Origin: Bacillus sp. FJAT-22090
GTDB lineage: Bacteria; Bacillota; Bacilli; Bacillales_A; Planococcaceae
NCBI RefSeq assembly: GCF_001278755.1
Contig: NZ_CP012601.1
Coordinates: forward strand, 248,001 to 312,000
DNA length: 64,000 nucleotides
Direction: 5' to 3'
A model generated the notes under the pieces. It was given only the letters and a program-made list of their open reading frames with translations, was not told the origin of the DNA and made no database searches. Shown here piece by piece: positions 11,614 to 50,422 of the stretch. The first letter of the stretch is position 1; every line of letters starts with the position of its first letter. Both the position numbers and the translations under genes were made by a program.

Positions 11614-12339
11614 GTGAAAAAGATTATTTTTTTATTATTAATAAGCGCTGTTTTGATAGTAGGGGCATGCGGTGACAAAAAGGTAGTTAATACAGAAACG
11701 GAAAATACAACAACGGAAAATACAACAACGGAAAATGAAGGAGACAAAATTATGTATCCACAACTTTCAACAGAAGTTGCTTCAAATGAAGCTTTAGTTA
11801 TTATGAATACATCAAAGGGACCTATTAAAATTAAATTATTCCCTGAACTTGCACCTAAAACGGTTGAAAACTTTTTAACTCACGCTGAAGAGGGCTATTA
11901 TGATGGTCTTATTTTTCACCGAGTGATCGAAGACTTCATGATTCAAGGGGGAGACCCAACAGGTACTGGTATGGGTGGAGAAAGTATTTACGGTGAAGAA
12001 TTCGAAGATGAGTTTTCGATGAACCTGTTTAACTTAAGAGGAGCATTATCGATGGCTAATGCTGGACCTAATACAAATGGAAGTCAATTTTTCATTGTAC
12101 AAGCATCAAGTGCTCAAGCAGAGGCTAAACAATTAGAAGACGGTGGATGGCCAGCAGAAATTGCAGCTGCGTATGAGAAAAATGGCGGAACTCCACACTT
12201 AGATCAAAAACATACCGTTTTTGGACAAGTTATAGAAGGTATGGAGATCGTTGACCAAATTGCAGTTGTAGAAAAAGATGAAAATGACAAGCCACTAGAA
12301 GACATTACGATAGATTCTATTGAAATCGTACAAAAATAA
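11614..12339 (+). CDS. Cyclophilin-type peptidyl-prolyl isomerase lipoprotein
   Basis: A 241-residue lipoprotein. The signal peptide ends in the lipobox VGAC with Cys19 as the lipidated residue. A low-complexity linker follows with a twice-repeated ENTTT unit, then a full cyclophilin domain (about residues 58-239). Conserved active-site features include [19 protein letters not shown] (Phe, His, Arg and Gln) and GSQFFI. The start is GTG with GGGGTGA upstream. It probably speeds folding of exported proteins on the outer face of the membrane. The following small gene starts 17 bp downstream and is likely cotranscribed. Confidence 0.9.
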
Positions 12340-29826: not shown

Positions 29827-29910
29827 AAAGCAACAAATTCAAGAAATTCAATTTGTAATCACATTCGTGATTATTTTTTGTGTAGTACTTTTAACTACTA
29901 TATTTGAGGG

Positions 29911-30021
29911 TTTCAAGACACAAGCAGTTCGAGGAAGCGAGTGAGTGAACACCGGAACGTACTAACGTACGTGAGGATGTGAACGAGCGAAGCTGACGAA
30001 GAAATGCGCCGTGTATTGAAA
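29911..30021 (+). repeat. Hairpin repeat element in the 16S-23S spacer
   Basis: A 111-bp element bounded by TTTCAA and TTGAAA, with inner arms ACAC/GTGT, GCA/TGC and TTCG/CGAA and a central CGTAC-TAA-CGTACG hairpin. Its core (CGAGGAAGC, CGTACTAA, AAGCTGACGAA) is shared with the triple tandem repeat at 34579-34950. It ends 9 nt before the 23S 5' end. Confidence 0.82.
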
Positions 30022-30030
30022 GCCGAATTA

Positions 30031-32960
<2,930 letters not shown>

Positions 32961-32977
32961 TATGAATTTGCGAGCAC

Positions 32978-33002
32978 CAATGTCTTTTATCCAGTTTTGA
33001 AA
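32978..33002 (+). other. Right arm of the 23S processing stalk
   Basis: Pairs with 29800-29826. Confidence 0.78.
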
Positions 33003-33082
33003 GAATAAAAATTTTATTAAAAAAACTCTTGTAAAATTCTACAGAGTTGATATAATAAAACTTGTCTTTCAATAATATTCAA

Positions 33083-33199
33083 GTCTAGTGATGATGGCGA
33101 AGAGGTCACACCCGTTCCCATACCGAACACGGAAGTTAAGCTCTTCAGCGCCGATGGTAGTTGGGGGTCTCCCCCTGTGAGAGTAGGACGTCGCTGGGC
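33083..33199 (+). rRNA. rrf: 5S ribosomal RNA
   Basis: About 117 nt with the conserved core GAAGAGGTCACACCCGTTCC and CCGAACACGGAAGTTAAGC. The terminal stem pairs GTCTAGTGA with TCGCTGGGC, with G-U pairs. Ends are approximate. Confidence 0.95.
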
Positions 33200-34486: not shown

Positions 34487-34562
34487 GGTCCCGTGGTGTA
34501 GCGGTTAACATGCCTGCCTGTCACGCAGGAGATCGCCGGTTCGATCCCGGTCGGGACCGCCA
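34487..34562 (+). tRNA. tRNA-Asp (GTC)
   Basis: 76 nt with CCA. Anticodon loop CTGTCAC. Followed by the tandem repeat block. Confidence 0.97.
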
Positions 34563-34578
34563 TTTATTATTTAATAAA

Positions 34579-34950
34579 TTAGAGATTTAGGGTAAGCAAG
34601 CAAATCGAGGAAGCAATCGAGTGAAAGAAGAAGCGTACTAAAGTACGTGACTGACTGAACGAGTGAAGCTGACGAAAAGATGAGCAGTTTAGCGTAAATC
34701 AATTAGAGATTTAGGATAAGCAAGCAAATCGAGGAAGCAATCGAGCGAAAGAAGGAACGTACTAAAGTACGTGACTGAATGAGTGAGTGAAGCTGACAAA
34801 GAGTTGCGCAGCTTAGCATAAATCGATTAGAGATTTGGAATAAGCAAGTAGATCGAGGAAGCAATTGAGTGAAGAAAGGCGCGTACTAAAGTACGTAACT
34901 GACTGAACGAATGCAGCTGACGAAGAGATACGTAGTTTAGTGCAAATCGA
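34579..34950 (+). repeat. Three tandem copies of a 124-bp hairpin repeat inside the tRNA cluster
   Basis: Units start at 34579, 34703 and 34827, exactly 124 bp apart. Each has a 117-bp core (34584-34700, 34708-34824, 34832-34948) with pairing ends and a 7-bp linker. All share CGAGGAAGC, GTACTAAAGTACGT and GCTGAC. The ends pair as GATTTA/TAAATC in copies 1 and 2 and GATTTG/CAAATC in copy 3. No credible gene lies here. A diverged fourth copy sits in the 16S-23S spacer. Confidence 0.9.
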
Positions 34951-34954
34951 AGAA

Positions 34955-35030
34955 GGCTCAGTAGCTCAGTCGGTAGAGCAAAGGACTGAAAATCCTTGTG
35001 TCGGCGGTTCGATTCCGTCCTGAGCCACCA
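34955..35030 (+). tRNA. tRNA-Phe (GAA)
   Basis: 76 nt with CCA. Anticodon loop CTGAAAA. Confidence 0.97.
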
Positions 35031-50304: not shown

Positions 50305-50422
50305 TACTCTTATCCCGAGCTGGTGGAGGGGTCAGGCCCTATGAAACCCGGCAACCTGTAATTTTTTCTATTGCAAAGGTGCCCAACCTGAGACAAGGTG
50401 AGATTCCTTGATTGATAAGAGT
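50305..50422 (+). promoter_or_regulatory. SAM-I (S-box) riboswitch
   Basis: A classic S-box leader. P1 arms ACTCTTATC/GATAAGAGT enclose the conserved GGTGGAGGGGTCAGGCCC, ATGAAACCCGGCAACC and AAGGTGCC segments. SAM binding should favour the terminator at 50447. The downstream GAAAGG (50423-50428) can pair with CCTTTC (50447-50452) as an antiterminator. It regulates metK, whose product makes SAM. Confidence 0.96.

Follow-up and report, generated by a model that had tools for sequence, protein, structure and literature searches.

A tandem triple of ERIC-like hairpins in a tRNA operon and its relatives at the 5' ends of stable RNAs in Bacillota

Introduction

The window analysed here is a 64,000-nucleotide stretch of the genome of Bacillus sp. 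FJAT-22090. Between its genes for tRNA-Asp and tRNA-Phe lies a 124-bp sequence that is repeated three times. Is this repeat a local accident of one spacer, a part of the machinery that matures the neighbouring RNAs, or a member of a family of elements that moves? To answer this question, we have analysed the folding and covariation of the repeat, its distribution, the genes it abuts, and its relation to ERIC and other palindromic repeats.

Methods

A covariance model, R1, was built from hairpin copies; it contains no proteobacterial sequence. The alignment behind a wider model, R2, included one copy from Clostridiaceae bacterium M8S5 and two from Rickettsia tamurae. Two alignments were used: A1, made with MAFFT and nearly gap-free, holds 36 hand-picked copies from two genera, one of them that of the window; A2 holds 102 rows fitted to the model. 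The 5' ends of stable RNAs were assigned by homology, using similarity to the window's Rfam-called rRNAs together with ARAGORN; for 5S-like units the start of 5S similarity was taken. ERIC loci of Escherichia coli were located via published primer sequences. G and L numbers are our labels for genomes and loci; G000 is the window's own genome.

Results

TRF reports a tandem array at 34578-34950 with a period of 124, 3.0 copies, and 0 indels, and a repeat search finds the copies at a spacing of 124, the second with 89% and the third with 83% identity to copy 1. The exact-period 124-bp triple described in an earlier, sequence-only reading is thus confirmed, as is its location: on the sense strand the order is tRNA-Asp, array, tRNA-Phe, within a 20-tRNA array 3' of a 16S-23S-5S operon. 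Each unit contains a 120-nt hairpin (Table 1). Over these hairpins copies 1 and 2 agree at 106/120 positions, copies 2 and 3 at 96/120, and copies 1 and 3 at 100/120. According to R1 the window holds four copies, the triple and one more in a 16S-23S spacer.

Table 1. Hairpin copies in the window and the genes that flank them
Feature	Position in window	Strand	Evidence and remarks
ERIC-like hairpin copy 1	34583-34702	+	R1 120.3 bits at G000:282583-282702 (own genome); 31/37 consensus pairs; z -3.93
ERIC-like hairpin copy 2	34707-34826	+	R1 132.5 bits; 33/37 pairs; z -4.82
ERIC-like hairpin copy 3	34831-34950	+	R1 132.5 bits; 34/37 pairs; z -3.97; 4 nt 5' of tRNA-Phe
TTAG linker, copies 1-2	34703-34706	+	Sequence; identical four bases at 34827-34830 (after copy 2)
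tRNA-Asp(GUC), upstream neighbour	34487-34562	+	ARAGORN
tRNA-Phe(GAA), stable RNA abutted by array	34955-35030	+	ARAGORN
Further copy of hairpin, 16S-23S spacer	29907-30026	+	R1 118.4 bits at G000:277907-278026; 34/37 pairs; end 4 nt before 23S
23S rRNA gene, 5' end abutted by spacer copy	30031-32959	+	Rfam RF02541

The core of each copy had been proposed to close on itself. In fact the whole 120-nt unit does so, and the + strand folds better than shuffled sequence (0, 0, and 1 of 200 shuffles are as good for copies 1, 2, and 3); the corresponding z values of the - strand are -0.35, -2.17, and -0.44. The compensatory changes that had been noticed in the arms are real: pair 7-113 is A-U in copies 1 and 2 and G-C in copy 3, and pair 19-100 is C-G in copies 1 and 2 and U-A in copy 3. 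Two-sided changes among the three copies are also found at pairs 9-111, 36-81, and 40-77, and copy 1 has two broken pairs, 18-101 (G.A) and 24-95 (C.A). In a single long fold of the spacer with tRNA-Phe, the predicted optimum joins copies 1 and 2 instead of forming separate hairpins; copy 3 and tRNA-Phe retain their own folds.

The hairpin consists of short Watson-Crick steps with tandem G-A modules between them and a GUAC-NNNN-GUAC cap. RNAalifold, the check suggested with the sequence-only reading, gives 25 pairs for the 36 copies of A1, 14 of which show two-sided changes. A 37-pair structure is paired in 87.5% of the cells of this alignment, and the weak pairs it includes are 8-112 and 10-110 (each 10/36) and 35-82 (9/36). 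The number of double-change cells is 137, compared with 43.1±6.6 in shuffled alignments (0/500 shuffles reach 137), which ignore the relatedness of the 36 copies, and with no more than 26 when the structure is slid along, a control that leans towards the structure because the 37 pairs were derived from the same sequences. Covariation beyond both shuffled and slid controls is the hallmark of a structured RNA, and we conclude that the hairpin is conserved and that its base pairing is selected. The original proposal, that a folded RNA is what selection acts on, is therefore well supported, both by the covariation in 36 copies and by the better fold of the sense strand. Two of the grounds on which that proposal was to be given up, a lack of covariation once more copies were added and a lack of copies elsewhere, fail, given the strong covariation and the copies found beyond the locus.

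From position 23 to the six-pair apical stem, steps of one to three pairs are split by internal loops of the 5'-GA/GA-3' type. In A1, columns 41-42/75-76 are G.A and A.G in 35/36 and 36/36 copies, columns 37-38/79-80 in 35/36 and 33/36, and columns 28-29/89-90 in 34/36 and 34/36, with looser G-A positions at 33-84 (GA 13, AA 12) and 45-72 (GA 27). The steps beside the modules swap pairs (36-81: CG 15, UA 14; 40-77: UA 20, CG 9). Most G-A modules are thus fixed and the adjacent steps covary. Seven modules can be followed in A2. Five of them occur in 24-28 of the 31 rows from the window's class, and the remaining two in 18 and 11. The counts are 3-11 of 20 rows for other Bacillota and 9-22 of 51 for the core-selected set of named genomes, where the module adjoining the selected core is the exception (43). 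A kink-turn reading of the conserved C-GAA-GA/GA-G module, made by eye, was rejected, the alternative register being unpaired in some copies. Rfam 15 finds 0 families in 34560-34960 even at E ≤10; its matches within the window are rRNA, tRNA, and one SAM riboswitch (50307-50421). A near-regular tandem G-A array along a 120-nt natural hairpin is an unusual RNA architecture.

The other suggested check, a covariance-model search of the genome and its relatives, shows that the triple is not alone. In the 4.21-Mb own genome R1 matches 27 copies at E ≤1, the triple included, all of them (27/27) in the sense orientation. Seven precede tRNA-Phe, eight (identical copies) precede 23S, five 5S, six 5S-like units, and one tRNA-Val; the last is shortened and lies 8 nt before the gene. 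A copy follows five of the eight 23S genes. Those without one include L527, where the spacer is empty, and the window's own operon, where the spacer is different: at 32960-33083 there is no hairpin and instead a promoter-like TTG...TATAAT stretch. Similar spacers occur at L505, L507, L517, and L522.

The 5S-like units are approximately 285 bp long and follow real 5S genes; at L026 (own genome, ~1899530-1902554) three stand in tandem. Each comprises a degenerate hairpin of the ERIC-like family, the 3' part of 5S rRNA (from CGAACACGGAAGTTAAGC), and a terminator-like stem. Such units are also present at L081, L128, L133, L134, and L139 and at loci in G101 and G131. The recurrence of hairpin and 5S-like piece in several families suggests that this is perhaps a conserved 5S-derived RNA, not a set of mere pseudogenes.

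The 16S of the own genome is 96.8% identical over 1179 bases to that of Sporosarcina thermotolerans and 95.4% identical over 1020 bases to that of Cytobacillus oceanisediminis (partial alignments). The genome is thus probably that of a Bacillaceae-like member of Bacilli, and we take its class to be Bacilli and its phylum Bacillota. R1 matches 111/200 genomes of the family at E ≤0.001 and, at E ≤1e-4, 144/261 genomes of the order, 51/398 genomes and 29/145 genera of the class, and 27/398 genomes of the phylum (own genome included); absences are lower-grade evidence here, since the wide searches used stricter filters and covered many draft genomes. Within the genus, R1 matches all but 2 of the 19 genomes at E ≤0.001; these two are drafts.

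We inspected the context of 122 of the 250 copies found in 11 genomes of the class (inspected/found: G103 20/21, G067 17/17, G092 7/7, G211 15/17, G101 15/17, G051 9/13, G131 4/6, G476 4/9, G012 5/8, G007 1/14, and, among the matches listed, G349 25/121). Of these, 112 end 0-6 nt before a stable RNA, a 5S-like unit, or the next copy: 43 before 23S, 29 before 5S, 6 before 16S, 8 before a tRNA, 1 before tmRNA (at 6 nt), 13 before a 5S-like unit, and 12 before another copy. The tally left out the weak row L459 39-145 and the M8S5 rows L497 478-601, L485 199-281, L481 992-1107, L484 199-292, and L486 601-635. The ten misfits are seven copies in or near tandem arrays in G349, L424 in a spacer after 16S, and two copies at L451, in an array with no stable RNA detected. 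Of 72 rows listed earlier, L126, L137, and L142 have no stable RNA or 5S-like unit just downstream. Among the inspected copies of the class, then, nearly all are sense and end 0-6 nt before a stable-RNA 5' end or another copy. G349 belongs to another family of the same class. The superfamily model matches it 121 times, and copies stand in tandem near 5S, 23S, and tRNA-Val; its dispersed copies may be under-counted, as 25/121 were inspected among the matches listed.

Beyond the class this placement rule weakens. In the phylum, the distance to the stable RNA downstream is 10 nt for L174 (tRNA-Gly), 29 nt for L175 (5S), 101 nt for L178 (16S), and 233 nt for L173 (23S; this copy sits in a 16S-23S spacer); most other phylum loci read are near no stable RNA named by Rfam or ARAGORN. 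R2 finds 116 copies in Clostridiaceae bacterium M8S5 and 80 in Rickettsia tamurae. None of 28 examined M8S5 copies sits in sense orientation just before a stable RNA, and four loci (L484-L487) abut sequence that by eye resembles the antisense of the 5S 3' end. We analysed the flanks of 44/116 M8S5 copies (loci L480-L499 and L530-L549). A stem of ≤ -8 kcal/mol starts within 4 nt downstream of 29/44 copies compared with 14/264 control windows, and the mean energy is -9.6 compared with -3.8 (p 7e-14). Structure is also present upstream (p 6e-10), where a small hairpin recurs before most of the 44 copies, so the downstream neighbour could belong to a longer repeat or reflect a 3'UTR habit. Several of the downstream stems are followed by a T run, as if the family were a 3'UTR element in this organism. 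Copies from Porphyromonas (17), Rickettsia (12), and Asticcacaulis (9) show no downstream helix (p 0.86 to 0.93), and a universal rule that the hairpin always lies 5' of a helix is not borne out there.

A core-pattern scan of named genomes returned at least 119 stretches from many phyla. R1 matches 62/80 of the core-pattern loci listed at E ≤0.01, rows below approximately 35 bits being weak because the 17-base core used for selection supplies part of the score. An Enterobacter cloacae record (L592) has five matches, one of them 21 nt before 5S in a 23S-5S spacer. The plasmid record CP065518.1 (L201), labelled Stenotrophomonas rhizophila and carrying four annotated features, has a match that is 83.5% identical; this record is possibly mislabelled or contaminated. 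A plasmid origin was rejected, as this was the single plasmid record matched and has no annotation at the match. A phage origin was rejected as well, since a search of phage sequences for the hairpin gave no matches.

The element has been gained or lost at individual sites. At 30 tRNA-Phe loci of the genus we found full copies, pairs, one triple, remnants that keep the outer arms and have lost the centre (e.g. L149, L150, L153, L155), spacers of 72-107 nt with no clear copy (L143, L144, L148), and short spacers of 22-30 nt (L152, L160, L171). Empty and filled 23S-5S spacers, as expected of a MITE-like element, occur side by side: in G010, L520 is empty and L513 filled, with matching flanks, and in the own genome L527 is empty and L504/L516 are filled, with flanks that differ somewhat. 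Filled and empty spacers in one genome imply that the element was gained or lost and is dispensable in some operons. A tRNA-Val copy in one species and a tRNA-Tyr copy in another are 95% identical, and the tRNA genes downstream are unrelated. When 67 hand-picked copies are compared with those of other genomes, 52 have their closest counterpart before the same kind of RNA, indicating that vertical inheritance in place or gene conversion is more important than jumping. The empty/filled pairs show no clean target-site duplication; their edges are ragged and differ by a few bases, and of the filled sites L513 has TA on both sides and the others do not. We conclude that the family is probably mobile. 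Of the two roles suggested by the sequence-only reading, a mobile hairpin fares better, given the empty and filled sites, the deletion remnants, and the near-identical copies before different tRNAs; a processing or stability element fits poorly with sister operons and some close species that have no hairpin.

ERIC (enterobacterial repetitive intergenic consensus; also IRU or RU-1) resembles the hairpin along its full length. R1 scores two E. coli ERIC loci (pgk-fbaA and ybhJ-ybhI) at 40.4 and 40.5 bits over model positions 1-120, the next best score being 7.4; the E-value is ~9e-10 in 1.7 kb, such values being rough. ERIC lacks the exact core pattern and was absent from the R1 training set. 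R2 gives 49.9 and 50.9 bits, scores that are not independent because R2 contains enterobacterial rows (L208, L251, L264). The passages on ERIC in a 2007 review describe a 127-bp MITE-like palindromic repeat between genes with TA termini, first reported in enterobacteria in 1990-91, and tabulate E. coli and other enterobacteria as hosts; experimental support for movement of such elements is there called still absent (PMC2229807). Our hairpin shares with ERIC the imperfect palindrome (120 nt compared with ~127 bp) that forms one long stem-loop, and the ERIC centre GGAGC-UUAC...GUAA-GUGAC aligns with its GGAGC-GUAC...GUAC-GUGAC. However, its host is of the Bacillota type, not enterobacterial, and it lies in stable-RNA operon spacers, at the 5' ends of stable RNAs; it has the tandem G-A array, it lacks the TATACTC...GAGTATA arms of the two E. 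coli loci, and a clean TA duplication was not seen. As host and placement differ and a target duplication is not shown, we call it ERIC-like, not ERIC.

Other known families differ as well. Rickettsia palindromic elements (RPEs), according to the review, are palindromes of 105-146 bp inside protein genes and RNA genes (tmRNA, RNase P RNA) (PMC2229807); they share the palindromic form and the occurrence in RNA genes but are also found within protein genes. We do not equate the R2 copies of Rickettsia tamurae with the published RPEs. The Rfam family Bacillaceae-1 lies near rRNA and tRNA operons, a similar neighbourhood, but the hairpin array has no Rfam match. rRNA/tRNA processing stems and intervening sequences are hairpins in precursor RNA beside a mature end; unlike these, ours is self-contained, occurs as one family before unrelated RNAs, and is missing from some sister operons. 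The 'multicopy sequences' of Geobacter were considered and rejected, since they do not fit as far as they are described in the relevant parts of two papers (PMC2996986, PMC2700814). In mainly open literature we found no published ERIC-like element in Firmicutes and no rRNA/tRNA-operon hairpin repeat in Bacillaceae, which does not prove absence from print.

Discussion

The triple is likely to be a non-coding palindromic element of approximately 120 bp, from a Bacillota branch of the ERIC/IRU superfamily, that spreads, rides on precursor RNAs, and is removed at maturation. This goes beyond the sequence-only reading in assigning the repeat to a family that extends through the genome and the class at the 5' ends of rRNA, tRNA, and tmRNA, and in relating it to ERIC. 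The element may spread by transposition or gene conversion. Transcribed with the operon, the hairpin would fold alone as a rod and would be cut off when the mature 5' end is made; mature 5' ends are made by RNase P, RNase M5, Mini-III, and RNase J-type enzymes, any of which might do so. Because it would be removed at maturation, the hairpin should do little harm in stable-RNA leaders, and insertions elsewhere would be lost or would not occur. A mild benefit may help retention if the hairpin isolates the terminal helix on its 5' strand or stacks on that strand. Tandem arrays might come about by local duplication, or because one copy is tolerated as the neighbour of the next. Under simple tolerance the copies would be expected to sit less close to 5' ends than they do, and a real function may be involved: the 0-6 nt spacing suggests either that insertion is directed to helix bases or that an abutting hairpin is favoured, by stacking or by keeping the 5' strand free. 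In Bacillota, a family that mostly lies 0-6 nt before rRNA, tRNA, and tmRNA genes obeys a precise and testable positional rule. Moreover, sister rRNA operons with and without the hairpin should make its effect on RNA maturation measurable inside one cell.

The hairpin could instead be a dedicated maturation or folding element, selected at each site for its help in the 5'-end formation of many stable RNAs, which it would give by insulating the terminal helix on its 5' strand, by stacking there, or by attracting a processing factor. The constant position before 16S, 23S, 5S, tRNA, and tmRNA, the uniform sense orientation in the own genome, the covariation, and the several remnants that keep paired outer arms all fit this idea, which we nevertheless regard as unlikely. 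In the own genome some 23S genes have a copy after them and others do not, L527 being empty and the window's spacer different; two draft genomes of the genus lack an R1 match; and the copies examined in Porphyromonas, Rickettsia, and Asticcacaulis have no helix just downstream. The RNAs that the hairpin precedes are, moreover, matured by different enzymes. The empty sister operons argue against the hairpin being necessary for 5' maturation.

We give similarly little credence to structure-directed insertion. According to this idea, the element lands just 5' of the base of a helix, be it a stable RNA, a terminator, or another copy, for example through factors that recognise single-stranded DNA or RNA. 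The 0-6 nt distances, similar whether an RNA gene or another copy follows, and the excess of stems downstream of M8S5 copies are in its favour. However, 15/44 M8S5 copies have no downstream stem, and such a neighbour is lacking in Porphyromonas, Rickettsia, and Asticcacaulis.

As for the link to ERIC, the two hairpins might be unrelated palindromes that converged on purine-rich stems and a GUAC-like cap. The R1 scores are just ~40 bits with rough E-values, the lower stem of ERIC aligns with gaps and unpaired cells, the members found through the exact core pattern were partly selected for that core, and the R2 scores of 50-51 bits are not independent, given the enterobacterial rows. Convergence is nonetheless improbable in our view, as ERIC, which lacks the core pattern and was outside R1 training, matches from position 1 to 120 far above background at both loci. 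At the other extreme, one very old, bacteria-wide superfamily of mobile RNA hairpins might unite ERIC with the Bacillota hairpins and with further palindromic repeats of bacteria, insertion in Bacillota being steered by structure to the 5' base of a helix. We put this forward tentatively and rather doubt it; if true, the rRNA, tRNA, and tmRNA leaders of Bacillota would be a safe harbour for the superfamily.

Finally, a plain local tandem duplication in a tRNA spacer, with neither family nor function, would account for the exact 124-bp period but is ruled out for practical purposes by the copies elsewhere in the genome, the relatives across the class, and the covariation. Elsewhere in the window, at 1304-1481 and 11689-11736, TRF also lists tandem repeats of short period (15-27 bp).
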